In this document: positions 9,413 to 28,517 of the stretch, piece after piece
How positions within the stretch are numbered: position 1 is the first letter of the stretch
Layout of the letters: each line of letters starts with the position of its first letter
From: an uncultured Eubacteriales bacterium
GTDB taxonomy: Bacteria; Bacillota; Clostridia; Oscillospirales; Oscillospiraceae
Direction of reading: 5' to 3'
Length of the DNA: 64,000 nt
NCBI GenBank assembly: GCA_900316745.1
Contig: ONEB01000002.1
Coordinates: 248,061-312,060 of the forward strand
The notes under the pieces: generated by a model
What the model was told of the DNA's origin: nothing
Seen by the model: only the letters and a program-made list of their open reading frames with translations
Databases searched by the model: none
Translations under genes and position numbers: made by a program

Positions 9413-9733
9413 ATGAAGAATGCAATAACATCAAAACCTATCAAAGCTCAATCAAGCAGATTATGGTGGTATCTGCTGCTGGTGATCGCTCTGTCTGCTT
9501 TTTGCTATATCACCCTCGATGTATTGCTGCTGCCGTATTCGGTTGAGTACAGCGAAACGGGAAAAATGACAGCCGGTTATTTCCTGTATGCAGCGATAGG
9601 ACTGTTATTCTCAACTCCGACACCTTTTGCAGCGGTTCTGATTCTTTCTCTATTATTCACGACTTTTTCTGCCCGGCAAATGGGCTGCAAAACGGGGCAG
9701 AATACGGCTTTTCAGGAGGCTGATCGCATTTGA
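9413..9733 (+). CDS. Small two-helix membrane protein, chimeric at its 3' end
   Basis: 106 residues with two hydrophobic segments (WWYLLLVIALSAFCYITLDVL and a second ending PFAAVLILSLLFTTF). The last 25 codons (from FTTFSARQM onward) are encoded by the repeated leader of the LMW-PTP gene, found again near 25.98 and 28.42 kb. The original C-terminus may therefore have been replaced. The ribosome binding site is weak. I do not recognise the family. It follows the CPBP gene by 27 bp and may be the third gene of that operon. Confidence 0.5.
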   Translation: MKNAITSKPIKAQSSRLWWYLLLVIALSAFCYITLDVLLLPYSVEYSETGKMTAGYFLYAAIGLLFSTPTPFAAVLILSLLFTTFSARQMGCKTGQNTAFQEADRI

Positions 9734-9777
9734 CCAAGATCCTTTTTGTGTGCCACGGCAACATCTGCCGCTCTCGA
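9656..9777 (+). repeat. Direct repeat copy 1: LMW-PTP 5' end (att-like site, left junction)
   Basis: The stretch from GACTTTTTCTGCC through CTTTTCAGGAGGCTGATCGC to the codons for TKILFVCHGNICR matches the leader and first 15 codons of the intact phosphatase gene at 28487. After about 9770 the sequence departs (CTCGA then AT-rich DNA). The first codons are left as a broken phosphatase start (TTG 9730, stop TGA 9789). The share of sequence with the other two copies is described under findings. Confidence 0.8.
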
Positions 9778-9789
9778 AAAACCCTTTGA
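9730..9789 (+). pseudogene. Truncated LMW-PTP start (P-loop fragment)
   Basis: TTG start with AGGAGG at 9714-9719, then TKILFVCHGNICRSRKTL and a stop. The CxxxxxR catalytic loop is present but the frame leaves the phosphatase sequence right after it. The intact copy is at 28487-28942. Confidence 0.75.
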
Positions 9790-9945
9790 TTTCAATGGTT
9801 TGCAGATGTGCGCACCTCCCATTTACACCATTTTTACACCATTTTCGCTCAACCTTTGAAAAAGATTGCCTGATATGCGCCAGAATAAAGCGGCAAATTG
9901 CAGCCGCATAATCATTCACATTCTTTTCGCACATTCGACAGCAAC

Positions 9946-10066
9946 GCCCTCCTTCGCTATAATTTGATCATCTTTTCATCGTCCGATGAACAACACAAAC
10001 TCAAAGTTTGTGTTGGGAAATCAATGCTTGTTGGGCATTGATTTAAACCATCAAACGAAGGAGGGC
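9946..10066 (+). repeat. Nested inverted repeats before a small gene
   Basis: An outer pair GCCCTCCTTCG (9946-9956) / CGAAGGAGGGC (10056-10066) encloses two perfect hairpins: AACACAAACT-CAA-AGTTTGTGTT (9992-10014) and AAATCAATGC-N7-GCATTGATTT (10018-10044). The right outer arm is the ribosome binding site of the 69-residue gene. A candidate promoter (TTCGAC 9934-9939, TATAAT 9958-9963, 18 bp apart) overlaps the left arm, so the outer pair may act in DNA rather than RNA. The remaining 9790-9945 shows no gene, only TTTACACCAT repeats (9829-9853). Confidence 0.6.
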
Positions 10067-10073
10067 TTCTTTC

Positions 10074-10283
10074 ATGCGATATAAAATCAAAATCAATGAC
10101 GATGAACGGCAGCTGATCGTCAAGGCGCTGTACGACTGGCGCAATGAGCTGCCCAAGGACAGCCTGCTCCGTCCCGATCTGGAGCAGCTGAAAGCAGAAG
10201 ATCAGTTGACTTGGGTGCGGCGGATGAACGCTGTTCGCGCCTGTGCGGAGAGGATTGTGACATCCGACTTATTGAACGATTAA
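10074..10283 (+). CDS. Small hypothetical protein
   Basis: 69 residues, charged and helical, with a very strong ribosome binding site (GAAGGAGGGC). The sequence is rich in Arg, Glu and Leu (for example DDERQLIVKALYDWRNELP) and has no membrane segment or cysteine pair. I do not recognise the family. It lies just inside the proposed left end of element A and is followed by a terminator at 10291, so it is a stand-alone unit. Its leader holds the nested inverted repeats. Confidence 0.65.
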   Translation: MRYKIKINDDERQLIVKALYDWRNELPKDSLLRPDLEQLKAEDQLTWVRRMNAVRACAERIVTSDLLND

Positions 10284-10502
10284 AATAGAAGTCCCGCACC
10301 GGTCGGTGCGGGACGATCTCGCTGGTATGTGTGAGAGCGCGGGCGGGAATGCGTTTTCAAATAATTCGCCGTGTTCGCATGGGACCGAATGGACCGCGCA
10401 GAGCATTCTGTATGCTTCCTCTTCATACAGCAGATACAGCTGGAATTCCCGGACGCTGACTGTACTCTGAATAAAGCCGTTTTGGCTGAAACGTTCTCCA
10501 CA
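10269..10502 (-). other. Open frame continuing after the stop of the acyltransferase-like gene
   Basis: The frame of the upstream gene stays open for 77 codons after its TGA (10503-10505). The translation looks protein-like (for example VREFQLYLLYEEEAYRML and HGELFENAFPPALSHIPA) but has no start codon with a ribosome binding site near its beginning. It may be a gene remnant fused after the stop, or a former C-terminal part lost by a stop mutation. I do not recognise the family. Confidence 0.35.
10291..10314. terminator. Hairpin terminator between convergent genes
   Basis: GTCCCGCACC-GGTC-GGTGCGGGAC, a perfect 10-bp stem between the small gene and the convergent acyltransferase-like gene. No long T tract on the plus strand; TTCTATTTTA follows on the minus strand. 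Confidence 0.65.
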
Positions 10503-11369
10503 TCAGAAGTCCACCTTTTCTCCCAGCGGGCGCTCCAGCAATTCCGGGTTTTCCAACAGCTTCCGAAGAAGCCGCACGGTTTTTGAATAATAATAGCCAT
10601 CGGCAATCCGTTCATCAATTGTAAGACCGAGATCAATGCTGTCGCGCATCTCGACGTTCCCTTCCTCATCAAAGAAGGGACGTTTTTTCCGCTCGCCAAT
10701 GACGCAGAACACCGAGCAGGTACCCCAGTTGGTCAAATGGTGATAGCCGGAATGGAGTTGAATGGAGCCCAGATTGGTCAGCACCACCGAGGCGTAATAG
10801 GGATCGGTGGCAATCACGTCCTTGGGCATCCAGCCGTGGCGGTCCAGGAACCGCGCGCCCGCGCCGACCAGCTTCAGAAGCGTGTGCGGCGTTTTCTGGA
10901 TGATGTCCATAGCGGCAGTAGACGGATCCTTTTTCTCACTGCGGCACAGGGAAACCTGGCGGAAAATCTCATCATGGATGGTGTCAATGGTGTCACCCTC
11001 TTTGGAATGAATAAACGCCAGTGCCTCACCGCCGTTGTCTGAAAAAATCTTCTTCACCGTAAACGCTGCTGATACCTCCTTTCGCTGATACATGGTTTGA
11101 TTCGCAATAAAACGGTTCATTTTCGGACGCTGTGTGATCACCTTTAGCAGAGCAGCAACCATGATCTGAAAGAGATTATATGGATATGCCGGGTTTTCCG
11201 CGTTCTTCCGCGCCAGATAAGCGTTCACGTTCGTCAAATCAATCCGCTCAGAGATAAACGCCTCATTGTCACAGCGGTTGGGATACATGAGCGGCATGAT
11301 GGTGTGCATGGAATCCAGCCTTTTCAGATAAACGCCGTCCTTACGGTTTGTCAGGCTTCCTTTTGTCAT
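10503..11369 (-). CDS. 2-oxoacid dehydrogenase acyltransferase / CAT-like protein without catalytic His
   Basis: 288 residues with the CAT-like E2 acyltransferase fold: YNLFQIMVAALLKVITQRPKMNRF near residue 65 and LGLTIDERIADGYYYSKTVRLLRKLL near 250. In active E2 and CAT enzymes the last block carries HxxxDG; here the His position is Glu (ERIADG), so normal acyl transfer chemistry is doubtful. No lipoyl or E3-binding domain is present. The start ATG follows AAGGGGCC. It is divergent from the lipid operon, sharing the 11370-11516 region. Possible role: acyl handling or a non-catalytic relative in envelope remodelling (inference). Confidence 0.75.
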   Translation of the reverse strand: MTKGSLTNRKDGVYLKRLDSMHTIMPLMYPNRCDNEAFISERIDLTNVNAYLARKNAENPAYPYNLFQIMVAALLKVITQRPKMNRFIANQTMYQRKEVSAAFTVKKIFSDNGGEALAFIHSKEGDTIDTIHDEIFRQVSLCRSEKKDPSTAAMDIIQKTPHTLLKLVGAGARFLDRHGWMPKDVIATDPYYASVVLTNLGSIQLHSGYHHLTNWGTCSVFCVIGERKKRPFFDEEGNVEMRDSIDLGLTIDERIADGYYYSKTVRLLRKLLENPELLERPLGEKVDF

Positions 11370-11450
11370 GTTTTATGGCCCCTTTTTCTCTATGATAAGA
11401 ATAGGATACCTAAAAAAGATAAAGTGAATCTAAACTCGTGTACCGGCACA

Positions 11451-11467
11451 GTTTCGTTTCGGTTTAT
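11451..11467 (+). promoter_or_regulatory. Predicted response-regulator box, lipid operon
   Basis: GTTTCG-N5-GTTTAT: two half sites with an 11-bp period (whole site GTTTCGTTTCGGTTTAT). It closely matches the boxes at 18346 and 18413. A -10 like element TATGAT (11479-11484) lies 11 bp downstream, the PhoB-type layout in which the bound regulator replaces the -35. Confidence 0.6.
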
Positions 11468-11516
11468 ATTTTGAGGCTATGATAATGGAAGAATATGAAA
11501 TAGCGGAGGAATGTGT

Positions 11517-11736
11517 ATGACAACCGCAAATAAAATCACGGTTTTCCGAATGCTGATGGTGCCGGTATTTGTGATACTGCTTTATCTGGATTTGCCGAGT
11601 GCAGGTTACTGGGCCTTGGGAGTTTTTATCCTTTTGGATTCTAGTTGTTATCACGACCGTCTGGTCCGGCACGGAGTATTTCATCCGAAATCGGGATGTA
11701 TTGAAGGAATCTGAAAGCGGGAGTGTCCTTTCATGA
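11517..11736 (+). pseudogene. pgsA-like phosphatidyltransferase with large internal deletion
   Basis: ATG 11517 with GGAGGA at 11505. The first 40 codons are a normal PgsA N-terminus (TANKITVFRMLMVPVFVILL). At about 11640 the frame breaks; the other frame then reads ILVVITTVWSGTEYFIRNRDVLK, a typical PgsA C-terminus, and stops at TGA 11734-11736, overlapping the cdsA ATG. About 100 central residues, including the DG-AR catalytic motif, are gone. It is therefore a pseudogene at the head of the lipid operon, whose leader may still couple translation to cdsA. Confidence 0.8.
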
Positions 11737-12536
11737 AAGATCGAGTCATTTACGGCGCGCTGCTCATGGCAGGGATGCTGCTTTGTGTGCTCCTGTCTCC
11801 GGTCACGCGCGTGGTGTTTTTTGCCGCAGCAGGGATTCTCTGCATGTATGAATACTGCGCCCGTCTGCGGGAGAGCGGCATTCACTGCGCCTTTTGGGCG
11901 CTTTCCCTGTTTCTGATTTCCGCAGCGGTACTGGCGCTGCTTGGCGCGGAGACAGAGCTGTGGTGCGCTGCATTCGCCATCTTCGTGTTTCTCTCGATGA
12001 GCTCCGGCATTTTCGACGCAAAGATATCCGGCCGCGGAGCGGTTTACACGGCGGCGGGACTTGCATATCCCGGTGTATTCTTTGCCTGGATCATCAGCAT
12101 TTCAGTCACGGAGCTGTGGCTGAAAGCGCTGACCTTGGCCTGCCTTTCCGTCTGGGTTTGCGACAGCGCCGCCATGTTTGGCGGGAAGCGCTTCGGAAAG
12201 CATAAGCTCGCGCCTGCAGTGTCACCCAACAAGACCGTGGAGGGCAGCATCTGCGGCGCGGTCAGCGCAGCCGCAGTTGGCGTGATCGTATGGGCTCTGG
12301 GGCAGTGGATTGGCGCGCTCAGCGGCATTTCATTGTGGCTGAGTATCTTGATCTGCGTGATTGCATCCACGGTTGGACAGGTCGGTGACCTTTCGGAATC
12401 TCTGATCAAGCGCATGATCGGGATCAAGGATTTTTCCGATCTGATTCCGGGCCACGGCGGTATGTTTGACCGGGCGGACAGCCTGCTGTTTGCCATACCG
12501 ACGGCATATCTGATCCTGCGGCTCGCAGGAATGTAA
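11733..12536 (+). CDS. cdsA: Phosphatidate cytidylyltransferase (CDP-diacylglycerol synthase)
   Basis: 267 residues, about eight membrane segments. The C-terminal signature is complete: SLIKRMIGIKDFSDLIPGHG followed by GMFDRADS. It makes CDP-diacylglycerol from phosphatidate and CTP at the membrane, the common precursor of phosphatidylglycerol, cardiolipin and phosphatidylserine. The start overlaps the stop of the broken pgsA, and dagK follows by 12 bp. Since cdsA is essential, a housekeeping copy probably exists elsewhere and this would be an extra one. Confidence 0.92.
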   Translation: MKDRVIYGALLMAGMLLCVLLSPVTRVVFFAAAGILCMYEYCARLRESGIHCAFWALSLFLISAAVLALLGAETELWCAAFAIFVFLSMSSGIFDAKISGRGAVYTAAGLAYPGVFFAWIISISVTELWLKALTLACLSVWVCDSAAMFGGKRFGKHKLAPAVSPNKTVEGSICGAVSAAAVGVIVWALGQWIGALSGISLWLSILICVIASTVGQVGDLSESLIKRMIGIKDFSDLIPGHGGMFDRADSLLFAIPTAYLILRLAGM

Positions 12537-12548
12537 AGGAGCGGAAGC

Positions 12549-13427
12549 ATGGATCAAAAGGAATTGCTGCATTTTCCGAAACGGGCGCTTTTTGTGGTGA
12601 ATCCCGTTGCGGGGCGAAAAACAATACAGAAGCATCTGTCGGACTGTGTCCGCGCTTTGATGGATGCGGGGTATCTCGTCACAACGATGGTCACCGCTGA
12701 GCGCGGCGAAGCGACGCAATACGCCAAGACATACGGGAAGTTCTATGATCTGGTGGTGTGCGCAGGGGGAGACGGCACCTTAAACGAGACTGTCACCGGA
12801 CTTGCGGAAAGTCATGCCAACGTTCCAGTGGGATACATTCCCTGCGGCACGACCAATGACTTTTCAGCCTCACATGGCTTGCCGAAAGATATTCCGGGCG
12901 CAATGCAGGGTATCGTCAGCGAACAGCGCGCACGATATGATGTAGGCTGTTTCGCTGATCAGTACTTTGTCGGTGTCGCGTTGTTCGGTGCATTTTCCTG
13001 GATGGCATATACCACCGAACAAACGAAGAAAAATAAGCTCGGTTATCACGCATATGTGCTCGACATGCGTCTGGAGGCGGATGGAACAACGCTGGAGGAT
13101 GATTATCTTTTCGGCGCCGTGAGCAATGCGTACAATTTGGGCGGTTATCTGGATCTGTCTGCGACCGGCGTGGATCTTTCGGATGGAATTCTGGAGCTGG
13201 TGCTGGTAAAGGCACCGCGTTCTTTGCCGGAATTGGATCAGCTGCTGCGCGCAATCACAGCGGGAGATTTCACAGGTCATTGGCTTACCCTGCGGCATGT
13301 GAAAAACATGAAAGTGCATAATCCACCGAAGCTGCAGTGGTCTTTGGATGGAGAGAAATCCGGCTGGTACGAGACAGTTGAGATTCGTGCACTGCCCGGC
13401 TTTTTGGAACTGCAGGGCGGAAAGTAA
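12549..13427 (+). CDS. Diacylglycerol kinase family lipid kinase (DagK/YegS type)
   Basis: 292 residues. The N-terminal block VVNPVAGRKTIQKHL and the catalytic loop CAGGDGTLNETVTGL near residue 75 identify the DAGK catalytic domain; the C-terminal beta-rich part (LDLSATGVDLSDGILELVLV) is typical of YegS/DagK. It phosphorylates diacylglycerol to phosphatidate, which feeds CdsA. It is the third frame of the lipid operon, with GGAGCGG 9 bp before ATG. Confidence 0.88.
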   Translation: MDQKELLHFPKRALFVVNPVAGRKTIQKHLSDCVRALMDAGYLVTTMVTAERGEATQYAKTYGKFYDLVVCAGGDGTLNETVTGLAESHANVPVGYIPCGTTNDFSASHGLPKDIPGAMQGIVSEQRARYDVGCFADQYFVGVALFGAFSWMAYTTEQTKKNKLGYHAYVLDMRLEADGTTLEDDYLFGAVSNAYNLGGYLDLSATGVDLSDGILELVLVKAPRSLPELDQLLRAITAGDFTGHWLTLRHVKNMKVHNPPKLQWSLDGEKSGWYETVEIRALPGFLELQGGK

Positions 13428-13443
13428 AAAAGAAGGTGTTGGA

Positions 13444-14019
13444 ATGAAAGCAATTTTTGAAGGAAAAATCCTGACAGTACCGAACCTGCTGTCCGCCCTC
13501 CGGTTATGTATGGTGCCGCTGTTCCTGTGGATTTACCTGCGGCTGGATGAACCCCTGTGGGCTGGGGGACTGCTTGTACTCTCCGGAATTACGGATACGG
13601 TCGATGGATGGATTGCACGAAGTTTTCACCAGGTAAGTAATTTGGGCAAAGCACTGGATCCGTTTGCGGATAAGGTTACGCAGATTGCCGTGGCAACCAG
13701 CCTCTCCATTCGATTCCCACGACTGTGGATCGTGTCGGGAATTTTGCTTGCGAAGGAAAGCTTTGCGCTGATCACCAGCCTCATGGCAATCCACAGCACC
13801 GGCGTCGTCACGGGCGCCGACTGGCACGGCAAGGTCACGACTACGCTAATGTATATCACTATGATTGCTCATCTGGTTTTCCCGGAGATCCCGGACATCG
13901 TCTCCATCACGCTGACAATCCTGTGCACCGGCATGATCTTGCTCTCCGGCGTACTCTACGGTATTCGAAACATCCACAGCATCTGTGCCGGAAAAGTGGA
14001 AGAGGTAACGGAATTATGA
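13444..14019 (+). CDS. CDP-alcohol phosphatidyltransferase (PgsA/cardiolipin synthase-like)
   Basis: 191 residues from ATG 13444, which follows AAGAAGGTGTTGGA. The catalytic motif D-x2-DG-x2-AR-x8-G-x3-D-x3-D is complete in DTVDGWIARSFHQVSNLGKA followed by LDPFADK. Several membrane helices follow. It transfers a phosphatidyl group from CDP-diacylglycerol to an alcohol, probably glycerol 3-phosphate or phosphatidylglycerol. It may substitute for the broken pgsA at the operon head. The next gene overlaps by ATGA. Confidence 0.88.
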   Translation: MKAIFEGKILTVPNLLSALRLCMVPLFLWIYLRLDEPLWAGGLLVLSGITDTVDGWIARSFHQVSNLGKALDPFADKVTQIAVATSLSIRFPRLWIVSGILLAKESFALITSLMAIHSTGVVTGADWHGKVTTTLMYITMIAHLVFPEIPDIVSITLTILCTGMILLSGVLYGIRNIHSICAGKVEEVTEL

Positions 14020-14699
14020 AGCTCAAATTCCAACGAGTGATGCGCATTTTCACGATCGTGCTTCTGGTGGTGTGGGCGGTACTAATCGCGTTGCTGTTTC
14101 GGAATGCGGGCAGCCTTTCCCTCAGCGATCTGCTGGCCTACCGACCGGAAAAACCAATACTTGCAGTGTTGGCACTGCTACTGATGTTCGCACTAAAGAG
14201 CATGGACGCGGTGATCCACTGCGGCGTGCTGTTCGCAGCAGCCGGACTGATTCTGCCGCTTCCGGCAGCCTTCACGGTCAATATTCTGGGAATCGTGCTC
14301 ATGTCTGTCATTCCCTACGCCGTGGGACGGCAATTGGGTCTGGAAGCGGCTGATGCCCTGCGGCAGAAACACCCTCGCCTTAGGGAAGCAGAGTCCTTCC
14401 AATCCCGACACGCGGTTCTGGTTTCCGCGCTGCTGCGCACTATCGGATTGCCAACCAATGTGACGGGAATCTATTTGGGCGCCATGCAGTTTGAGTTCCT
14501 GCCCTATCTTGAGGGCTCTGTGCTGGGCATGCTTCCGCTCCTGATTTTCTTCACGCTGATCGGCACCAGCGCCGATGATGTGCACTCCCCGCTGTTCATC
14601 GCATCCGTTGCAGGTCAGATTGTGCTGACGATATTGTCCGCGCTGGTCTATGCCGCCCTGCGAAAGCGGGACAGGCAGAATCATTCCAACGGAAGGTGA
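14016..14699 (+). CDS. TVP38/TMEM64 (VTT, DedA-related) membrane protein
   Basis: 227 residues from ATG 14016, overlapping the previous stop. Hydrophobic segments with the VTT-domain pattern are present: a re-entrant GLILPLPAAFTVNILG region and a second half with LLRTIGLPTNVTGIYLGAMQFEF. Proteins of this type are lipid scramblases or help recycle undecaprenyl phosphate and phosphatidylethanolamine in the membrane. Its place in an operon of CDP-DAG, lipid kinase and phosphatidyltransferase genes fits lipid flipping. Confidence 0.8.
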   Translation: MKLKFQRVMRIFTIVLLVVWAVLIALLFRNAGSLSLSDLLAYRPEKPILAVLALLLMFALKSMDAVIHCGVLFAAAGLILPLPAAFTVNILGIVLMSVIPYAVGRQLGLEAADALRQKHPRLREAESFQSRHAVLVSALLRTIGLPTNVTGIYLGAMQFEFLPYLEGSVLGMLPLLIFFTLIGTSADDVHSPLFIASVAGQIVLTILSALVYAALRKRDRQNHSNGR

Positions 14700-14709
14700 G
14701 TTTCACGAT

Positions 14710-15531
14710 ATGAATACAATACAATATCAAACCGATTTGAAAAGCGGCGTGCATTCCCTGCAAGCGTGGACGCAGCAGGAGCTGACACAGCGCTATGGGC
14801 GAGGACGCAGAATGATCCATGGGATGAGTGTGGATTTCTCGCTCTTTCTGACCTACAGCTTTGCCGGATGGCTGTGGGAGAGCACTGTGTGCTCTCTGTA
14901 CAATTACGGCAAGCTCATCAATCGCGGGTTTCTCAACGGCCCCTATTGTCCCATTTACGGCTGCGGCGGTCTGCTGGCAGTCCATTTGCTCAGTGAGCTG
15001 GAGCATCCCTCTGCCCGATTTCTGGCCAGCGGTACGCTTTGCTGTGCTCTGGAATACGCGACCAGCTGGGGTATGGAAAAGCTATTTCATGCCCGCTGGT
15101 GGGATTATTCCAATAAACCGTTCAATCTGAATGGACGCATTTATCTCAATGGATTCCTTGCCTTTGGCGCTGCAGCATCGCTTTTGGTTGACCGTCTGGA
15201 TCCGAAGCTCCGAGAGAAGATCAATGCACTGCCTCCGGCTTTGGTAGACATGGCTGCCGCCGCGGCGTTGATTGGCTTTGGCACCGATTCTGCGATCACG
15301 ATTCTGGGCGTCATGGGCTTCAGCCGCCAGTTGGAACAGCTTGCGGCAATACTCGAATCCGGGCTGGAGCAGCTGCCTGCGGCGGAACGGATTCGATCGG
15401 CCTACGATCGTATGAGCACCCAGCAGCGTCGAATTCTCTCTGCATTCCCGCGGCTGCGAGCGCCGGCAAACAACCACGCGCTATCCGCGATTCGACATCT
15501 GATTTCAGAAAGGAACGGCCAGTATGAATGA
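14710..15531 (+). CDS. Putative ABC-transporter type IV (CmpB-like) membrane protein
   Basis: 273 residues from ATG 14710 with GGAAGGTGAG upstream. Residues 48-190 have the pattern of the putative ABC-transporter type IV family (FAGWLWESTVCSLYNYGKLINRGFLNGPYCPIYG split over about residues 53-85), then WWDYSNKPFNLNGRIYL. The C-terminal 70 residues are helical and charged. Family function is not established; members lie near envelope and teichoic or lipid genes. Last full gene of the lipid operon. Confidence 0.75.
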   Translation: MNTIQYQTDLKSGVHSLQAWTQQELTQRYGRGRRMIHGMSVDFSLFLTYSFAGWLWESTVCSLYNYGKLINRGFLNGPYCPIYGCGGLLAVHLLSELEHPSARFLASGTLCCALEYATSWGMEKLFHARWWDYSNKPFNLNGRIYLNGFLAFGAAASLLVDRLDPKLREKINALPPALVDMAAAAALIGFGTDSAITILGVMGFSRQLEQLAAILESGLEQLPAAERIRSAYDRMSTQQRRILSAFPRLRAPANNHALSAIRHLISERNGQYE

Positions 15532-15631
15532 GCATCGAAATCCTGCGCCGAATATTGAAGGCAGATTGCGCCGCGGGATCTTGCGTGTGCCGGAGGCAAC
15601 GTATGACGCAAGGATCTCTTTCGAGAGATGA
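15524..15631 (+). CDS. Very short open frame at the operon end, possibly frameshifted
   Basis: 35 codons (MNEHRNPAPNIEGRLRRGI...) starting inside the end of the previous gene with AGGAACGG upstream. A shift near 15607 would continue as KDLFREMMAKYRDM to a stop at 15654, which reads more like a natural protein end. It could be a frameshifted small gene, the start of a truncated one, or chance. Function unknown. Confidence 0.35.
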   Translation: MNEHRNPAPNIEGRLRRGILRVPEATYDARISFER

Positions 15632-15659
15632 TGGCGAAATACCGGGATATGTAAAGGAA

Positions 15660-15697
15660 GAACGGCAGAGCATATCTGTGCTCTGCCGTTCACACGC
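15660..15697. terminator. Strong bidirectional terminator
   Basis: GAACGGCAGAGCA (15660-15672), 6-base loop, TGCTCTGCCGTTC (15679-15691). It closes the lipid operon on the plus strand and the response-regulator operon on the minus strand. Confidence 0.8.
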
Positions 15698-15719
15698 ATT
15701 TGAACTGATTTTTCCCTGC

Positions 15720-16547
15720 TCAGACCTCAGAGGTTTGTCTCTCGGGATCTGCTATTATCTGCACAGGGCGAGGTACGAGCTCTTCAACGATCTGCTCTGC
15801 GCGCCGGCTGCGGGAGCGGAAATACCCGATCACGGAAAAGACGAACGCGCCGATCATGTTGACGAAGAGATCCTCCATCGTGTCATACAGGCCAATGTCC
15901 AGATAGCCGCCGAGCCCGAGAGAATTCCCGTTGACGGACACATCCGATATGTCCTTGAGCACGATCGGAGTGTTGCTGTTCGTCGGGTCCAGCATCACAC
16001 TGGCGAATTGAGAGATCACGGTGTCCTTCTGCATATCCGCGAGAAAGATTCGATCGACGCCGTATTCAAAGAACTCCCACAGGACGCCGATGGTCATGGA
16101 AAAGCAAAACGCGACCACTGCGAGAAAAGCCGGTGAGAGCTGGAAATGGGTTCGTTCATTACGGTTCAGAAGATCTACAATGGCATAACCGATGGCGGCG
16201 CAGAGGAAGCCCCACACGGTATGTGTGATGGTATCCCAGTGGGGATAGCGCACATAGTAGCAACCCAGTTCGCCCAGAATCTCACAGGCAAAAATATGGA
16301 GCAGAATTACGATTTGCAGCCCGGAAGGAAAAGCGATACCAAATCGCTTGGCCAGAATGGAAGGCAGCAGGAAGAGGAACAGCACCAGCAGACAGATGAA
16401 TACGTTTTCCCACAGGCCGTTCATGGCGGAGCGAATCAGAATCAGTACCACCAGCAGCCGCAGCACCACCCAGGTCACGAAAGCAGCCCGATTGTGTTTC
16501 CACTGTTGTGACAGGATGCTTCTCAGCCGTTGTCCACCCGCGGTCAT
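15720..16547 (-). CDS. Integral membrane protein (YjdF/DUF2238-like)
   Basis: 275 residues with six to seven hydrophobic segments. Family-type blocks: RYPHWDTITHTVWGFLCAAIG near residue 100, SMTIGVLWEFFEYGVDR near 150 and YDTMEDLFVNMIGAFVFSVIG near 225, with conserved Asp, His and Glu inside the membrane. The family is uncharacterised. It is the last gene of the response regulator - sensor kinase operon, with its start overlapping the kinase stop, so it is likely involved in sensing or in the response. Confidence 0.7.
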   Translation of the reverse strand: MTAGGQRLRSILSQQWKHNRAAFVTWVVLRLLVVLILIRSAMNGLWENVFICLLVLFLFLLPSILAKRFGIAFPSGLQIVILLHIFACEILGELGCYYVRYPHWDTITHTVWGFLCAAIGYAIVDLLNRNERTHFQLSPAFLAVVAFCFSMTIGVLWEFFEYGVDRIFLADMQKDTVISQFASVMLDPTNSNTPIVLKDISDVSVNGNSLGLGGYLDIGLYDTMEDLFVNMIGAFVFSVIGYFRSRSRRAEQIVEELVPRPVQIIADPERQTSEV

Positions 16548-20451: not shown

Positions 20452-20488
20452 AGCGCCCTGTGTTGCGCAACACAGGGCGCTGTTTCTT
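20452..20488. terminator. Bidirectional terminator after ftsH
   Basis: Perfect palindrome with arms AGCGCCCTGTGTTGC / GCAACACAGGGCGCT (20452-20481) followed by GTTTCTTT. Also ends the convergent degV fragment. Confidence 0.85.
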
Positions 20489-20910: not shown

Positions 20911-20936
20911 TAAGCTTCAAGAAATCGGTTTTGACT

Positions 20937-21518: not shown

Positions 21519-21524
21519 GGTTGG

Positions 21525-21553
21525 ATTATAGCACAGATTTACCAACTGGTCAA
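21525..21553 (-). promoter_or_regulatory. tetR promoter (leaderless)
   Basis: -35 TTGACC (21553-21548), 17-bp spacer, -10 TATAAT (21530-21525), minus strand. Predicted start is at about 21518, the A of the ATG. Confidence 0.75.
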
Positions 21554-21626
21554 CAAAACTCTTGACAGAGGCAAACAGATATGATACTTTTAATTTACCA
21601 AGTGGTAAGCAAAGACCAAACGGTAA
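21539..21626. promoter_or_regulatory. TetR operators and promoter of the copper cluster
   Basis: Operator 1 TTACCA-AC-TGGTCA (21539-21552) covers the tetR -35. Operator 2 TTACCA-AG-TGGTAA (21595-21608) is a perfect palindrome at the expected start site of the plus-strand promoter (TTGACA 21562-21567, 17 bp, TACTTT 21585-21590). A weaker third site, AGACCA-AA-CGGTAA, lies at 21613-21626. Confidence 0.75.
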
Positions 21627-21649
21627 ATGAAAATTGGGAGGAACCGATC

Positions 21650-22162
21650 ATGACACTGGAACAGGAGAAGAAAACAGCGAAGTTTCTGGACAGCCGTCTG
21701 GATGACAAAACCGCAGCCAAGGTGGAGAAGTGGAATCTCGCCTTGCTGGGCCTGACGCTTGCCCACGACGCGGATCATATCATGCAGGCCCGCCGTTGGC
21801 ATTATCACATCCCGCTGCAGCTGTGGGTCATCAATCTGGCGGTCTACGTGCTTCCCACGGTGACGGAGTTTCTGGTCCGCAACAAGCGGGCGTCCTCCTT
21901 CAGCGCGGCGGCGGTGGGCAGCCTGCTCACCACAGTGGCCTTCAACAAGGTGCACTTCTGGAAGCCCACCACCGACGTCTGGGGCGTCTGGAACAACAAC
22001 TACTTCAAGATCAACAAGGGCGTCTGGCACGAGGGACAGTTCATCCAGGGCATCAAGTGGTACGACTGGGCGCTGCTGCTGGATCTGGTGGTGCTGTGCA
22101 TCCCCATGACCACCAAAATGCTGCAGATGCGCAAGGAGCACAAGGAGCAGTTGGAGAAGTAA
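21650..22162 (+). CDS. Unknown His/Trp-rich membrane protein of the copper cluster
   Basis: 170 residues from ATG 21650 with GGGAGGAA upstream. About four hydrophobic segments; polar stretches carry clustered His and Trp (LAHDADHIMQARRWHYHIP; KVHFWKPTTDVWGVWNN; VWHEGQFIQGIKWYDWALLL). These could bind metal or a hydrophobic ligand near the membrane surface. I do not recognise a characterised family. It is the first gene behind the TetR operators and is followed by the copper ATPase after 31 bp. Confidence 0.65.
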   Translation: MTLEQEKKTAKFLDSRLDDKTAAKVEKWNLALLGLTLAHDADHIMQARRWHYHIPLQLWVINLAVYVLPTVTEFLVRNKRASSFSAAAVGSLLTTVAFNKVHFWKPTTDVWGVWNNNYFKINKGVWHEGQFIQGIKWYDWALLLDLVVLCIPMTTKMLQMRKEHKEQLEK

Positions 22163-22193
22163 AGCCATTCGGGTTGACTGAGAGGTGTCATCC

Positions 22194-24542
22194 ATGAAAA
22201 CCATCACGCTGACCGTGCTCGGCATGGACTGTGCCGCCTGCGCTTCTACGCTGGAGCGTTCTATGCGGTGGCAAAAGGGCGTCCAACACGCAGTGGTAAA
22301 CTACACCGCCGGAACCATGGAGCTGACCTATGACGACGCAGCCCTCACGCTGGAGGATGTGGTCCTGTATGTGAAAAAGGCCGGATATCGCGTCCCCGTG
22401 GAGGAGGCGGATCTCGCGCTGCCAAAAGGCGCGGATACCGAGGCTGTGAAGAACGCGCTGCGCTCTGTCTACGGCGTCTGCGGCGTGGAAGACCGTCCGG
22501 ACAGAAAGATCATGGTGACGTTCCGCCCGGTGGGCGTGGACAGCCATGCCCTGCTGGACGCTGTGCGGTCTGCCGGCGCAGAAGCGGAGGTAACAGATTT
22601 CCGCGCCGGGGAGGAATATCACCAGCTGGACACGAGAATGCGGCTGCTGCGGACGCTGGTTACCTCGGCTTCGCTCACCGCTCCGCTGATGCTGGAGCTG
22701 CATCCGAAAGCGCAGTTTCTTCTAGGCACTGCGCTGCAATTCGGGCCAGGGCGGTATTTTCACCAGGGGGCGCTGCGAAATCTGCGAAACCGCACCTTCG
22801 GCATGGATCTTTTGGTCTCCCTCTCCAGCTCCATCATCTGGCTTTACAGCAGCTTTGTGGCGCTCACCAGAAAGAAGTGTTTCACCCTCTACTTCACCTC
22901 TCAGGGCGTGCTGCTGAGTCTGATCCTCTTCGGCAAATATATGGAGCAGGTGGCGGCGGGGGAGGCCGGCGCCGCCATCCGGAAACTCCTGCGGCTCCAG
23001 CCCGCCTCCGCCATGGTGCGCAGAGACGGGGAATGGAGGGAGCTCGCGGCAGACCAGATCCGAACCGGAGACGAAATCCTGCTTCGTCCAGGCGAGCGTG
23101 TTCCCGCGGACGGCGTGATCGTCAGCGGCTCGTGCGCCGTAGACGAATCCATGCTCACCGGCGAGAGTATGCCGGTGGACAAGGCCGAGGGCGACAAGCT
23201 CGTCGGCGGCAGTCTGAACCGCTCCGGCTCCGTCACCTACGCGGCCACTACAATCGGAAAGGATTCCGTCCTGCAGCAGATCGTCGCCATGGTGCGGCAG
23301 GCGCAGACGGAAAAGGCGCCGATCCAGCGCTTTGCCGATGCGGTGGCGCAGTGGTTTGTTCCCGGTGTGGTAGCTGCTGCTGCGGGCACCTTCGCTTTAT
23401 GGTTCTTCAAACTGAAAAAAGGCGATCTGGAAACGGCGATCCTCAACTGCTGCGATGTGCTCACGGTGGCCTGCCCCTGTGCGCTCGGTCTCGCCACGCC
23501 CACAGCGCTGATGGTGGGCTCCGGTGCAGGGGCGGAGCGCGGTGTGCTCTTTAAGAGCGGCGGCGCCCTGGAAACTGCTTGGAAGGCTGACGCCGTTGTC
23601 TTTGATAAGACCGGCACCCTCACCCTGGGCGAGCCGCGGCTTACAGACGTCTGTCCGCTGTCTGATGTGACTGCGGAGGAGCTGTTGAAAGTCGCTGCTG
23701 CCATTGAGACCTGCTCTGATCATCCGATCTCCAAAGCTGTGACGGCTTACACAAAGGAGTCTGTTTCCGATTTCGAGCCCCAAGAGGTCACGGCGTTTGC
23801 GTACCTCCCCGGCCGCGGCGTTATGGGGGAGATTGCGGGTAAGGAAGTGCTCTGCGGCAACCGTGCGCTGCTTTCTGAGCACGGCGTGAAGCTCACGGAG
23901 CTGGAGCGGCTGCCGGATCTTAGAAAAGAAGCAAAAACGGAGCTCTGCGTGGCGAAAAACGGAAAACTGCTGGGCGTTCTCGCTGTGGCGGATGTGCTGC
24001 GCTCTGATGCTGCTGAGACCGTCTCCGCGCTGAAAGCACAGGGAAAGGAGCTTTGGATCCTGACCGGCGACCACGAGGAGACCGCAAAGGCCATCGCGGC
24101 GAAAGTCGGCGTCGACCATGTGCTCTCCGGCGTGATGCCGGAGGACAAGGTGCAGAAGATCAAGGCGCTGAAGGAAGAGGGAAAGACCGTCTGCATGGTG
24201 GGCGACGGCATCAACGACACGCCCGCCCTCGCCGCGGCGGACATCTCTGTTGCCATGGGCACCGGATCGGACGTCGCTATCGAGTCTGCCGGCATTCTCC
24301 TGCCTGCAGGAAAGCTCACAAAGCTGACCGAGGCATTCTCCATCTCAAGGAAAACCATGCGTGTGGTACGGCAGAATCTCCACTGGGCCCTCGGCTATAA
24401 CCTCGTCAGCATCCCGGTGGCGGCGGCAGGGCTCCTGCACCCGTCATTGTGCGCCATGGCCATGTCGGCAAGCTCCATCGGCGTGCTGATGAACTCGCTG
24501 CGGCTGCAGAAGCGTGGAAAGAAAAAGGAGCGTGACTGCTGA
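22194..24542 (+). CDS. copA: P1B-type copper-transporting ATPase
   Basis: 782 residues from ATG 22194. The N-terminal heavy-metal domain has GMDCAAC near residue 9. Membrane metal site CPC lies in ACPCALGLATPTALM; phosphorylation site DKTGT in VVFDKTGTLTLG near 460; ATP-binding HP in CSDHPISKA; hinge GDGINDTPALAAADI. The last helices carry YN and MxxSS (GYNLVS, MSASSIG), the P1B-1 signature for Cu(I). A second metal-like domain at 75-145 has lost its CxxC. It exports cytoplasmic Cu(I) or delivers it to cuproenzymes. TetR-controlled and coupled to the next gene by ATGA-type overlap. Confidence 0.9.
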   Translation: MKTITLTVLGMDCAACASTLERSMRWQKGVQHAVVNYTAGTMELTYDDAALTLEDVVLYVKKAGYRVPVEEADLALPKGADTEAVKNALRSVYGVCGVEDRPDRKIMVTFRPVGVDSHALLDAVRSAGAEAEVTDFRAGEEYHQLDTRMRLLRTLVTSASLTAPLMLELHPKAQFLLGTALQFGPGRYFHQGALRNLRNRTFGMDLLVSLSSSIIWLYSSFVALTRKKCFTLYFTSQGVLLSLILFGKYMEQVAAGEAGAAIRKLLRLQPASAMVRRDGEWRELAADQIRTGDEILLRPGERVPADGVIVSGSCAVDESMLTGESMPVDKAEGDKLVGGSLNRSGSVTYAATTIGKDSVLQQIVAMVRQAQTEKAPIQRFADAVAQWFVPGVVAAAAGTFALWFFKLKKGDLETAILNCCDVLTVACPCALGLATPTALMVGSGAGAERGVLFKSGGALETAWKADAVVFDKTGTLTLGEPRLTDVCPLSDVTAEELLKVAAAIETCSDHPISKAVTAYTKESVSDFEPQEVTAFAYLPGRGVMGEIAGKEVLCGNRALLSEHGVKLTELERLPDLRKEAKTELCVAKNGKLLGVLAVADVLRSDAAETVSALKAQGKELWILTGDHEETAKAIAAKVGVDHVLSGVMPEDKVQKIKALKEEGKTVCMVGDGINDTPALAAADISVAMGTGSDVAIESAGILLPAGKLTKLTEAFSISRKTMRVVRQNLHWALGYNLVSIPVAAAGLLHPSLCAMAMSASSIGVLMNSLRLQKRGKKKERDC

Positions 24543-24820
24543 TGCAGGACGCGATTTTCAAGACCTATGTGAAGGGCATCTGGTGCGTCCAGTGCCCGGA
24601 GCTGATCATCTCGGGACTCCTGCAGCAGCGCGGCGTCATCGACGCGGACGTGGCTTATTTCCAGTCGCTTGTGACGGTGAAATACGATCCTGCCATCGTG
24701 ACCGAGGAACAGATGCGCGAGAGGCTGATGGAGCTGGGCTATCCGCCCTTTGACCGGAAGCCCTCTGCGGCAGAGCGTCTGGCGGCAAAGCTGAGACATC
24801 TGGTCGGAGGAACATCATGA
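24542..24820 (+). CDS. Small heavy-metal-associated (HMA) domain protein
   Basis: 92 residues. The ferredoxin-like HMA pattern is present with metal site GIWCVQCPE near residue 12 and C-terminal LGYPPF. The length suits one HMA domain plus a short basic tail. It probably acts as a Cu(I) chaperone between the ATPase and the next protein. Start overlaps the copA stop and its stop overlaps the next start. Confidence 0.8.
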   Translation: MQDAIFKTYVKGIWCVQCPELIISGLLQQRGVIDADVAYFQSLVTVKYDPAIVTEEQMRERLMELGYPPFDRKPSAAERLAAKLRHLVGGTS

Positions 24821-25716
24821 GTACACAGACCTTTCAGCAGCGAGTGGACGGGATCATCTGCCCAAACTGCACCTATGAGATCAACTCGCGCCTGCAGAGA
24901 GCGGACGGCATTCTTTCCGCCAAAACCAGCTACATCAAAAGCGAGGTCACAGTTGAATTTGACCCCGACCGCATCACGGAGCAGGAGATCGAGGCGCAGC
25001 TTGCCAAAATGGGCTACCCGGTGGGCAATGGGCGGTTTAACCTGCTCTCTGACGCGTTGGGCCTCGTGTGCATCGCGGCGCTGTATTTCCTGTTGACGCG
25101 GCTCATCGGTGCCGTGCCCATGCCCATGGCGGAGCAGGGCATGTCCCTGTGGCTGGTATTTTTGACCGGGCTTCTCGGCGGCGTCCACTGCATCGGCATG
25201 TGCGGCGGCATCATGCTCACGCAGCATAACGCCCTCGCCTACAACGGCGGCCGCATGGTCGGCTATGCGTTCATGGGCGGTGTTTTCGGCGCGGTAGGCA
25301 GCGCTTTGGTGTTCAGCGCGGGGCTGAAAAGCGCGGTGTTTATCATCGCGGGTGGACTCGTGATCCTCATCGGTCTGCAAATGTGGGGCGTGCCGCTGCT
25401 CAGAAAGCTCCGCCCGGGACTCCCAAGCCCCTGCGGCCGCCGTGGAAAGCCCTTCGTCGTCGGGCTGCTCACCGGTGTGATGCCCTGCGGGATGCTCACC
25501 TCCATGTGGTTTGTCGCGGCGTCGGCATCATCCATACCGAAAGGCGCGGCGATTATGCTGGTGTTCGGTCTGGGCACCTGTGTCTGTATGCTGCTCTTCG
25601 GGCTCCTCGGCGACGCGATGACCAGAAAATACAACAAGTACATCCTCAAAGCCAGCACCATGCTCATCATCACCATGGGTCTCATGCTGATGGTGAAGGG
25701 CATACAGCTTTTGTGA
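24817..25716 (+). CDS. HMA domain fused to SafE/DsbD-like membrane transporter
   Basis: 299 residues. Residues 1-70: an HMA domain with GIICPNCTYE. Residues 80-299: six membrane helices of the sulfite exporter TauE/SafE - DsbD-like family, with paired motifs GGVHCIGMCGGIM near 118 and GVMPCGMLTSMW near 220. In copper systems such proteins work with CopA-like ATPases in cuproprotein assembly, moving Cu or reductant across the membrane. Last gene of the TetR-controlled cluster; a terminator follows. Confidence 0.85.
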   Translation: MSTQTFQQRVDGIICPNCTYEINSRLQRADGILSAKTSYIKSEVTVEFDPDRITEQEIEAQLAKMGYPVGNGRFNLLSDALGLVCIAALYFLLTRLIGAVPMPMAEQGMSLWLVFLTGLLGGVHCIGMCGGIMLTQHNALAYNGGRMVGYAFMGGVFGAVGSALVFSAGLKSAVFIIAGGLVILIGLQMWGVPLLRKLRPGLPSPCGRRGKPFVVGLLTGVMPCGMLTSMWFVAASASSIPKGAAIMLVFGLGTCVCMLLFGLLGDAMTRKYNKYILKASTMLIITMGLMLMVKGIQLL

Positions 25717-25761
25717 AAAAGGAACCGACCCGTTTCCTGACCTGGCAGAAATGAAAGTAAC

Positions 25762-25794
25762 AGAGGAGAGGCTTCGTGCCTCTCCTCTTTTTTT
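25762..25794 (+). terminator. Rho-independent terminator of the copper cluster
   Basis: AGAGGAGAGGC-TTCGT-GCCTCTCCTCT followed by TTTTTT. Confidence 0.9.
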
Positions 25795-25862
25795 GCGCTG
25801 TTGCTCCCGAGGCGTCTATGTGGTATATTTACGGAGAAAACCACGGTAGAAAACACCCCGAT

Positions 25863-26052
25863 TTTTACTACCATTTGACTACAATTGACGGCTGTGACTT
25901 GCCGCATTTTGCCGTATTTTGCGTTTTCCATGACAGAGTCACATTTTGTTCACGAAATTTTGAGGTCGGCAAATCGCGGTAAAACGGGGCAGAATACGGC
26001 TTTTCAGGAGGCTGATCGCATTTGACAAAGATCCTATTTTTGTGTCACGGCA
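25863..26052 (+). repeat. Direct repeat copy 2: element right end plus LMW-PTP 5' end
   Basis: About 190 bp (TTTACTACCA... to ...TGTGTCACGGCA) nearly identical to 28329-28517. It holds the LMW-PTP leader (AGGAGGCTGATCGC) and start codons TTG ACA AAG ATC (26023), after which the frame is broken (LTKILFLCHGTRGRMRNFR stop). The first 120 bp of the repeat are shared with copy 3 only, not with copy 1. The interval 25795-25862 and 26053-26178 shows no gene. Confidence 0.85.
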
Positions 26053-26178
26053 CTCGAGGTAGAATGCGGAATTTTCGTTGAAATATCAAAGGTTTTCGCG
26101 ATTTGCGCCTGATCTGATACCCTGTTTGTACCGAATGATTTTTCCTCCAAAACTGTGTGCTTTTGAGTAAAATAAAAC

Positions 26179-26217
26179 ACGACCATACCGTGCACATTTT
26201 CTGCCCGGTATGGTCGT
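26179..26217 (-). terminator. Terminator of the element B gene
   Basis: ACGACCATACC (26179-26189) pairs with GGTATGGTCGT (26207-26217); on the minus strand it is followed by GTTTTATTTTA. It lies 33 bp after the stop codon of the 557-residue gene. Confidence 0.75.
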
Positions 26218-26249
26218 TTAATATTTGGGTTGTCCAACGCATAAGGAAT

Positions 26250-27923
26250 TTATTTCATGGCCTCTTCAACACGACTTTTTATTAGAGCGGGGGTTATGCT
26301 TTCCCAATAATTAACGTATATGAGCTTTATGCCATTATCGCGACTTCTTTCTGCTTTGAGTTTATCCCTTTCCTGCTGCTTTTCAAAATTCTCTTTACCG
26401 CCGAAATAGTCGACAGGTTCAAAATGCTGCTTTCCTTGGTATTCAATAGCCACCTTGAGACCGCAAATGTAAACGTCATATGACATATTTCCATTTTCCG
26501 TTTGAAGGAAAAACGGCCTGTATTGATATATTACATGATAATCATGATAAAGCTTCTTGGTAATATTAAATACAAGCTCTTCGCTTTTCCAACGGTTTAG
26601 CGGCTTGGAGTATTCTCCAAATTCGTAGGGATCATATTCTCCAGCATATGCATTGCTGATCAGCTGACCAGGAATCAGAAATAGGTCGGCATCATCTTTT
26701 ATTTGCCTATCGACGTAGTAGTATGAAAACTTGTTTTCTAATCGCCAGCGCTTCTTTTTGCCTTTCCAAGATAGAAAAGCCTTAATGAAGCCGCGATTCT
26801 CAGGAAATGATAAGCAGCTCGCTCCATTCAATTCAAGGCTTCTGGAATTAGTGTCTTCAAGTTCTTTGCATAGCTTTAAAACGAAAGAATGGATAACACC
26901 TTTTGTATAACCTGCACCGTACTGCTTGCTTCCGTCAATATCAACCATTTTGAAGATCAGAAAATGATATGTTTCTCCGCCATACTCGTCAAATCTTCTC
27001 TGGAGCTCCAGCTCAGGCAGTGCTTTATCAACAACCGGAAAGTTATCTATATCTCTAACATAATAATTAAGACCATGAAACTTAAAAAAGTCTATTCCTA
27101 TGGAATCAAATACGAAGCTTCTTCGAAAGCCCTGATAATTGAACTTAAATAGATCATTGTGAGTCAACTCTTGAATCATCACGCAAGGAAAATCCCAGTC
27201 TCTTCCGTACTGATCATCGTGCATGCTTCTCCAATTTTTAGGTACAAGACGGAAATCTACAATCAAACTATCTTCAATTTTTAGGACAACATCATGGCTA
27301 GATATTCTGTATTCTTGAACATCCATGTGCTTGCAATACATGGTTATGTACTGGTTAATCACCGTGCGGAGAGATTTTTCAGGTTCTTCTTTTGTTATAC
27401 AGACCTTCTCATTTACGATATTCTTTTTTGTTCGACGTTTATCACCTGCGAGATACTTGCGCCGCAATTCATCGGCACTCCTTCTGTAATAGTGCATTTC
27501 CGATTTATTCCTGTCATCAATGTAACTAACAAGATATCCAAATTCGGTTCGATTCATTATTACATCACGGAAAGATATTGTGAATGATTTCCACGATCCA
27601 GCAACGGCAAGCAGATCATAAAGTGCATGAACATGTTTAATAAAAGAGCTTTCGTCTTCTATTGAGATAGATACCTTGTTGATCTCAACAGAACAAACAC
27701 TACTAGGGAGAGTATCTAATATCGCATACACAAGAGGTGCGTTTTTTGCAGTGCTTCCAATCACAAAAGATACTGTGAATTTTTTAAAGATAAGAGTCGG
27801 ATAATCAGGGAAACAACGCTGCAGGTATGAGTTCCTTGCGCTTCGATAGCAATCTATGTCATCTGGCTGTTGATAGGATTCCAACTCTTTCTTCATTTTC
27901 TCCCAGAAGTCTGATGTGCTCAT
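26250..27923 (-). CDS. Unknown protein with nuclease-like (PD-(D/E)XK/Vsr-type) C-terminus
   Basis: 557 residues, the only gene between repeat copies 2 and 3. Base composition is clearly A+T-richer than its neighbours, a sign of transfer. Residues 1-470 have no family I recognise; they are mixed alpha/beta with many aromatic residues. The last 85 residues read NMSYDVYICGLKVAIEYQGKQ followed by HFEPVDYFGG, then a QERDKLKAE helix and IKLIYVNYWE. This D...ExQ-x2-H plus D-x2-K layout resembles the C-terminal domains of Vsr-like and restriction-like endonucleases. No helicase, methylase or toxin partner is nearby. A defence function is plausible but unproven. Confidence 0.6.
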   Translation of the reverse strand: MSTSDFWEKMKKELESYQQPDDIDCYRSARNSYLQRCFPDYPTLIFKKFTVSFVIGSTAKNAPLVYAILDTLPSSVCSVEINKVSISIEDESSFIKHVHALYDLLAVAGSWKSFTISFRDVIMNRTEFGYLVSYIDDRNKSEMHYYRRSADELRRKYLAGDKRRTKKNIVNEKVCITKEEPEKSLRTVINQYITMYCKHMDVQEYRISSHDVVLKIEDSLIVDFRLVPKNWRSMHDDQYGRDWDFPCVMIQELTHNDLFKFNYQGFRRSFVFDSIGIDFFKFHGLNYYVRDIDNFPVVDKALPELELQRRFDEYGGETYHFLIFKMVDIDGSKQYGAGYTKGVIHSFVLKLCKELEDTNSRSLELNGASCLSFPENRGFIKAFLSWKGKKKRWRLENKFSYYYVDRQIKDDADLFLIPGQLISNAYAGEYDPYEFGEYSKPLNRWKSEELVFNITKKLYHDYHVIYQYRPFFLQTENGNMSYDVYICGLKVAIEYQGKQHFEPVDYFGGKENFEKQQERDKLKAERSRDNGIKLIYVNYWESITPALIKSRVEEAMK

Positions 27924-28070
27924 AAATGGTCACCTTATATTTATGTCGTTTTTATTGTAAAGGGCATGTGATGGGCTTTAGACTTGTATCTAATGTGCTA
28001 ATATTATAGCATAGCCTTGCAAGGTAGATGTGTCAACCACAGATGGTAATGTGAGAGACAAATGAAGGAT

Positions 28071-28104
28071 GACGCTCAGCTTTTCCGGCTGGGCGTCTTT
28101 TTTT
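28071..28104 (+). terminator. Orphan rho-independent terminator
   Basis: GACGCTCAGC-loop-GCTGGGCGTC followed by TTTTTTTATTTTT. No intact plus-strand gene precedes it, so it may have ended a gene now lost. The rest of 27924-28328 contains no supported gene. Confidence 0.75.
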
Positions 28105-28328
28105 ATTTTTGGCTTCATGATATAATGGAAACTAACAGTGTTGCCGAGCGTTAGATGCTAAATTTTGCGTTGCCTTCTGACGAGCAGAAACATGGTCACC
28201 TTTTTTGGACAACATTGCGCGTAAAATGAAGGCATAAACGCAACACGAAGGAAGTACACGCGCTCTCTGAAAGTGCTTAGCTCGTCACCTTGTGCTCCTG
28301 CTTTCGACGGTAGTAAGGACCCCTCAGT

Positions 28329-28517
28329 TTTACTACCATTTTACTACAATTGACGGCTGTGACTTGCCGCATTTTGCCGTATTTTGCTTTTTCCATGACA
28401 GAGTCACATTTTGTTCATGACTTTTTCTGCTCGGTAAAACGCGGCAAAACGGGGCAGAATACGGCTTTTCAGGAGGCTGATCGCATTTGACAAAGATACT
28501 TTTTGTGTGCCACGGCA
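28329..28517 (+). repeat. Direct repeat copy 3: element right end plus LMW-PTP 5' end (intact)
   Basis: Near-identical to 25863-26052 and, for its last 105 bp, to 9656-9777. Here the repeat continues into the complete phosphatase gene. Confidence 0.85.

Follow-up and report, generated by a model that had tools for sequence, protein, structure and literature searches.

Why does the start of one gene occur three times on the same strand of a bacterial chromosome when only the last start leads into an intact gene? The question is raised by a 64,000-nucleotide stretch (hereafter the window) of contig ONEB01000002.1, from an uncultured Eubacteriales bacterium of the Oscillospiraceae, in which the leader and first codons of a low-molecular-weight protein tyrosine phosphatase gene (LMW-PTP or PTP) form three direct copies, and only copy 3 continues into an intact LMW-PTP. 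The two segments that end in copies 2 and 3, elements A and B, are very probably decayed elements of the cis-mobilizable element (CIME) type, flanked by attachment (att) sites, that entered serially and site-specifically at the codons of the phosphatase P-loop, with TTTGTGTGCCACGGCA as the core. The features on which this reading draws are as follows.

9652..9760, + strand: copy 1, with leader, ribosome-binding site (RBS), start codon and core TTTGTGTGCCACGGCA; broken PTP, attL of element A (nhmmer, profile positions 103-210, E 3e-31; self-BLAST).
9761..26052, no strand: element A, integrase-less, probably composite (Pfam on 16 open reading frames (ORFs); integrase profile negative).
9761..9850, + strand: left end of A, tandem arm repeats ACACCATTT at 9825 and 9836 (20-mer ACACCATTTTTACACCATTT matching genus mates).
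25844..26052, + strand: copy 2, right end of A, with arm repeats TTTACTACC / TTTGACTAC, leader and core; broken PTP start (nhmmer, full length, E 2e-68).
26053..28517, no strand: element B, a 2.5-kb segment of 39% GC with a single cargo gene.
26053..26120, + strand: left end of B, TCAAAGGTTTTCG motif, no clear arm repeats (from the sequence).
26250..27923, - strand: cargo of B, 557-aa protein.
28281..28307, + strand: spacer GCTCGTCACCTTGTGCTCCTGCTTTCGA of the "empty" (gene-less) right-end type (aligned with loci L202, L137, L201, L211 and L220).
28308..28517, + strand: copy 3, right end of B, intact core (nhmmer, full length, E 2e-70).
28487..28942, + strand: intact LMW-PTP gene, 151 aa, the attachment-site gene (Pfam LMWPc, 2e-36).

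Self-BLAST of the window aligned copies 2 and 3 at 90% identity over 211 bp (E 3e-76), copies 1 and 3 at 90% over 121 bp (E 8e-40) and copies 1 and 2 at 86% over 108 bp (E 2e-28); the other direct repeats at E<=1e-3 measured 30 and 42 bp only. No further copies were found across the 2.44-Mb genome. Self-BLAST, Pfam and an nhmmer profile built from twelve right ends, including those of A and B, bear out the initial annotation, which had proposed three copies with the last one intact and whose coordinates are refined here, and also its statement that copies 2 and 3 share an upstream stretch absent from copy 1, since copy 1 is without the first ~102 bp of the right end. Copy 2 departs from the phosphatase directly after CACGGCA (26052), and copy 1 retains P-loop codons up to codon 15, with PTP similarity reaching 9774; the CTCGA that had been placed at matching exit points of these two copies lies at a different position in each. 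The GC content is 55% in element A, 39% in element B and 63% in the right flank.

A candidate agent for such insertions is found in the relatives. In the genus of the window, the phosphatase gene was present in nine of 10 genomes searched, the genome itself included, and a tyrosine integrase gene lies directly upstream of it in five of the eight other gene-bearing genus mates (genomes G002, G004, G006, G007 and G008). Four of these five carry a 389-aa form in which the stop codon is followed by TACACCATTTTTACACCATTT, the leader and the phosphatase start. A wider set comprised 80 named PTP loci, by title from Clostridia, Spirochaetia, Bacteroidales and others, 65 of them with 1.5 kb of upstream sequence. 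Eleven of the 80 have an integrase within 548 bp upstream on the same strand, all of them Clostridia-type records by title, including four from these five genus mates and one (L048) with fragments only. The spacers between integrase and phosphatase vary by locus. Paired arm repeats (TTTTACAACC, TTTGCACC, TTTACTAC, TTAACCA or TTGACTAC) precede the leader and the same codons in L028, L040, L048, L050, L075 and L152; none were seen in the spacers of L016 and L017. A search for a recombinase sharing the ends of the elements had been proposed, and this family provides the same site and one arm repeat: the 20-base ACACCATTTTTACACCATTT, which occurs once in the window, at 9825 within the left end of A, is identical in the integrase-side right ends of G002, G004, G007 and G008.

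Both integrases that were scanned contain the Tn916 arm-binding domain PF02920 together with PF00589, and the best PDB matches of the PTP-site integrase were 6emy (7e-75), which we take to be the Tn1549 integrase, and 1b69 (7e-13), presumably the arm-binding domain of Tn916. The arm repeat TTTACTAC also resembles AGTAGTAAA, which we assume to be a Tn916 arm site. On the basis of these arrangements, the P-loop codons are an attachment site for Tn916-type tyrosine integrases. The domain structure and the closest PDB relatives of the PTP-site integrases point to the enzymes of Tn916 and Tn1549. These two elements insert into AT-rich DNA without strict sequence specificity, according to the available text of PMC8138268. 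Because the integrases described here lie at one site, they would be site-specific relatives of the Tn916/Tn1549 enzymes.

Candidate helpers that could supply such an integrase are an element with a relaxase (PF03432) beside the integrase in L014 and a prophage using the site in L094, with a holin and a GH25 lysin. In L028 and L050, the PTP-adjoining integrase is closely preceded by replication initiators (Rep_trans, Rep_OBD). In L188 (2756-10546), a full-length PTP-site integrase is followed at once by a large serine recombinase, an ORF that by eye resembles a ribosomal protection protein, and a MobA/MobL relaxase, which would fit the insertion of another mobilizable element into the platform. 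In L133, a run of N framed by an inverted repeat (12904-12943) lies shortly behind the integrase, where the right end is expected. The Streptococcus phage Javan141 was considered as another example beside an LMW-PTP gene and was set aside, its integrase lying ~4 kb from the gene in a different arrangement.

The right end of A and B, ~210 bp long, recurs in the family. A DNA search of 400 family genomes gave any match in at least 153, most of those listed matching the phosphatase codons only, and matches at E<1e-40 in at least 10, own genome included. In the genus of G117, 49 of 102 genomes matched, 36 of them at E<1e-30. When 394 genomes of the order were searched, the own genome alone had the full right end among the matches listed, and G099, which belongs to the same family, aligned over 139 bases at 70%. 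Outside the family, at least nine genomes matched over 25-30 bases of PTP codons only and one over 29 bases inside the right end. From the right-end matches, 67 stretches were picked for analysis, to which the window and three loci of viral or phage origin were added. A phage origin of the array was rejected, as IMG/VR scans for right-end patterns gave no match; a scan for the P-loop codons returned four contigs, the L094 prophage among them. No known RNA element reached its gathering score in seven array loci.

The pattern seen in the window extends beyond it. Among 58 right ends with a core, 27 continue into an intact phosphatase, 30 into other DNA and one meets the contig end, and the 30 broken ones break at the core or within about 15 bases of it. 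The 30 left ends fall into recurrent families of 11, 4, 3, 3 and 2, with seven single, both left ends of the window included. The same right end bounds many unrelated genes across genomes, in agreement with the expectation that other cargo would be found flanked by the same repeat. In the 52 loci with a right end of intact 5' part, a full-length integrase ORF is present in three (L094, L133 and L188) and a C-terminal integrase remnant in five (L196, L202, L209, L215 and L221). At L040 (1160-1560), in a metagenome-assembled genome of the Lachnospiraceae, a gene-less 157-bp insert with TTTGCACC arm repeats separates a broken PTP start from an intact one.

In many relatives, the units that make up the arrays have a regular order, namely a terminator-promoter module, one gene and the right end. 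Among the 57 right ends for which 400 bp or more of upstream sequence was available, 36 have a same-strand ORF of at least 100 aa that stops 20-55 bp before them, when 2.7 are expected from random positions in the same loci; units recur, and not all of these cases are independent. A 95-bp module (terminator hairpin plus promoter) precedes many of the unit genes, with 70 matches in total. Since 11 of its 42 full copies follow a recognizable integrase 3' end (three of 5000 random positions do), we read the module as probably the stretch that followed the integrase gene. Seven loci have no gene between module and right end, the two being linked by about 30 bp, and the right end of element B in the window has the spacer of this gene-less type (28281-28307). 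The scanned unit cargo included GNAT acetyltransferases, a 2-hydroxyacid dehydrogenase, an epimerase, TraB-like, B3/4 and flavodoxin-like proteins, a metallophosphoesterase, a methyltransferase, a hexapeptide acetyltransferase of Vat/CatB type (below the family cut-off), PNPOx, a radical SAM protein (below cut-off), DUF5655 and CrcB, the CrcB gene of L136 having been read from the sequence.

Related bacteria appear to swap these single-gene units. The sister genomes G117 and G269 share 9886 bp at 95.4% identity left of the array and 5050 bp at 97% from the phosphatase on, with different units in between. Nine contig pairs have a unit in common, with 94-96% DNA identity over 654-1451 bp, and phosphatases that are only 48-64% identical in protein, and four of these pairs join G197 (genus g41) to genus g5; in four more pairs the unit is 85-91% and the phosphatases 49-67% identical. 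This comparison is independent of binning, the phosphatase being taken as the measure of host distance. A hydroxyacid dehydrogenase unit, 96.8% identical over 1222 bp between G008 (genus of the window) and G442 (g5), was dropped as proof of cross-genus exchange, as its G008 contig may be misplaced. The UvrA-like gene left of copy 1 in the window (3568-6120) is 82% identical in DNA to a gene of G197 (L140) that sits 2.3 kb upstream of the PTP, which suggests that the accretion zone may extend further left than 9656.

With this background, the contents of A and B can be considered. In the whole window, no ORF of at least 30 aa matched the PTP-site integrase profile at E<=10, in agreement with the initial annotation that neither element holds a recombinase gene, and Pfam-type scans of the 16 ORFs of A and the single ORF of B revealed no relaxase or transfer family. 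Neither an integrase nor its remnant was found in A or B; the right ends of some relatives follow integrase remnants. Element A encodes CdsA-, DAGK- and PgsA-like proteins, a VTT protein, a two-component system, an FtsH-like protease, a metal-type P-ATPase, HMA/DsbD proteins and a truncated DegV, the last an ORF at 20488-20910 in which only the C-terminal part of the family profile was matched, a sign of decay. The FtsH-like gene matches the PADLOC IetA models (8.5e-43), which we read as probably due to a shared AAA domain. Two genes of A have kin near the right end of L204 (CdsA, 54%, and a 275-aa membrane protein, 72% amino acid identity). The arm type of A is TTTACACC at the left end and TTTACTACC at the right, the latter also being that of the right end of B, and because its two ends differ in this respect, element A is probably composite; the mixed cargo fits accreted pieces. 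For the protein of B, the C-terminal ~110 aa have relatives in three of 299 other genomes searched. A defence function of this protein was rejected, with no PADLOC, Pfam or NCBIfam match; its EYQGKQH stretch resembles what we take to be the PD-(D/E)XK nuclease motif.

Taken together, these observations suggest that elements A and B would have entered in succession by site-specific recombination at the P-loop codons. The recombinases would have been tyrosine integrases of the Tn916/Tn1549 type, provided by autonomous elements with the same target, whether mobilizable or conjugative elements or prophages. Each right end would deliver the arm sites of the integrase, the leader, the RBS and the first codons, and the phosphatase would be rebuilt at each insertion, its previous start remaining as a broken copy. 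Arrays in relatives are formed with this same right end, and many of their units consist of module, gene and right end. The site, the repeats, the structure of the arrays, the units common to different arrays and the integrases at the site can be read directly from the sequences; movement of the units by the integrases in trans or by accretion, transcription of cargo and phosphatase from the promoter of the module, the order of events in the window and the mobility of the units and elements themselves are inferred from them. The comparative data agree with the earlier proposal of two serial insertions that each restored the gene, and the pattern that would speak against it, in which all relatives carry the same arrangement at no alternative site, was sought and not found, G117 and G269 having the same flanks around different units.

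A different account of how the units spread is plausible, though short of probable: integrase entry would be old, and units would now move mainly by homologous recombination between the 95-bp module and the 210-bp right end, the two long conserved modules that often frame a unit. Shared blocks that have the module in register number 17; in line with this account, 13 of them start no more than 15 bp from the module, and 12 extend into the right end in both loci. However, seven of the 17 are gene-less pairs, six of the 10 gene-bearing blocks begin at the module, and a start at the module is equally expected wherever the DNA upstream is unrelated. Some junctions are fused within modules, at GCGGCA or behind GTCACAG, in line with homologous exchange; they may instead reflect deletion or another way of joining. 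What speaks against this account is that broken starts in tandem, followed by the same families of left end, require insertion at the core, and that the unit common to L134 and L206 carries the core and a left end along. It is very improbable that the locus is an assembly artefact in which repeats common in gut genomes led to the joining of unrelated contigs. The assemblies are of metagenome type, their contigs frequently terminate at the repeat and there are mixed bins, but the copies in the window differ by 10-14% with a longest exact match of 52 bp, the window lies within a contig of over 300 kb, the sister genomes independently give 95-97% identical flanks around the array, and identical left-end families recur in different genomes. 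Finally, a simple segmental duplication at the start of the gene, or else unequal crossing-over, for which direct repeats of 86-90% identity could serve as substrates, can be dismissed as extremely improbable. All copies give way to unrelated left ends at a single core or just past it, other genomes have different genes next to this right end, and integrases that share an arm repeat are located at the site; the shared left-end families and the G117/G269 comparison already contradict such an origin.

Several points weigh against serial integrase-driven entry. The two ends of A are of different arm types. A PTP-type integrase was not found in the own genome, which is 92.5% complete, when ten regions with eleven PF00589 matches were examined; these integrases are at most 29% identical to the PTP type over long stretches, with fragments up to 49% over 41 aa. 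Genomes G001 and G003 have the phosphatase, and no integrase was found on those contigs. An empty site with the left flank of the window, which had been proposed as a check, was not found, as a BLAST search with the left-flank DNA among the loci then compared matched the own genome only. No circular form or excision was seen. Many of the array genomes are fragmented and some bins are mixed; individual junctions could be misassembled, since N occurs at one of them and several contigs break off at the repeat. Signs of mixed binning include the two PTPs of G440 (L189 and L190), which are 54% identical to each other, one of them equal to that of G328 from another genus. Contig C12 of G008 (L130, L251), which is 88-94% identical to G414 (g5) over some 14.6 kb and thereby most of its length, may be misplaced.

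Among known systems, the closest are the streptococcal CIMEs, described in the available text of PMC5704250 and PMC7563491 as att-flanked elements without integrase or transfer genes that are stacked at one gene end, 1.2-13 kb in size, with gene-less microCIMEs of 130-220 bp and composites at the 3' ends of rpmG, rpsI, fda and rplL. By the definition in the available text of these sources, A and B are CIMEs in tandem accretion. The core repeats ending at 9760, 26052 and 28517, together with arm sites, provide attL and attR, the left end of B being without clear arm repeats, and neither element carries integrase or transfer genes. A possible descent from an integrative and conjugative or integrative and mobilizable element would fit the left end of A, which matches integrase-bearing elements of genus mates, one of them with a relaxase, but neither A nor B holds an integrase remnant. 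The likeness lies in stacked, att-flanked, integrase-less elements with the gene rebuilt at each insertion, and the 157-bp insert of L040 resembles a microCIME. In contrast to the streptococcal cases, the site here consists of catalytic-loop codons at the 5' end of a gene. Moreover, many units have a single gene that follows a conserved terminator-promoter module, and they turn up in more than one array.

The arrays resemble integrons in that single-gene units stand in tandem, each gene is followed by a conserved site, a promoter lies next to the integrase gene and the cargo is broad (acetyltransferases, methyltransferase, CrcB and others). However, the integrase is of the Tn916/Tn1549 type with an arm-binding domain, and four PTP-site integrases scored only 47-61 bits against the IntI model TIGR02249, with its cut-off of 265. 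Insertion takes place inside a protein-coding gene, and many units carry their own promoter module, in contrast to the mostly promoterless integron cassettes. In staphylococci, composite staphylococcal cassette chromosome (SCC) and pseudo-SCC elements, with and without recombinase, are stacked at the 3' end of rlmH by ccr serine recombinases. They resemble the arrays in that elements with and without a recombinase are stacked at one gene, but the site here is LMW-PTP and the site integrases are tyrosine recombinases. The Dehalococcoides ssrA islands, as presented in the available text of PMC3146451, also stand in tandem at one conserved gene, with an integration module in 16 of 31, and differ by a serine recombinase, the tmRNA gene as target and a larger size.

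The arrays are an integron-like variant of CIMEs, new in the 5'-end catalytic-loop site, in the regularity of single-gene units that share an expression module, and in the recurrence of units in distant arrays. In the titles and abstracts that searches of the open-access literature listed, we did not find LMW-PTP described as an insertion site; one paper that came up names the phosphatase in an expression table only, and the word is absent from the main text of the papers checked for it. We tentatively suggest that, in a family of gut Clostridia, the arrays may work much as integrons do, as a platform that captures and expresses genes by means of a site-specific relative of the Tn1549 integrase, with genes captured between promoter and right end and units stacking at the P-loop. 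If so, the platform would consist of the terminator, promoter and right end behind the integrase gene, the gene-less units would be the empty platform, and element B would carry the right end of such an empty unit. The findings point to a common insertion hotspot in gut bacteria whose attachment site is formed by the best-conserved catalytic codons of a protein-coding gene, which would allow a single family of integrases to act in many different hosts. Integrase-less units, common to distant contigs, would accrete with a regularity near that of integrons yet outside the integron family, and the right-end and promoter modules would offer ready markers with which such arrays could be located in metagenomes and the way in which single genes gain mobility could be tested.

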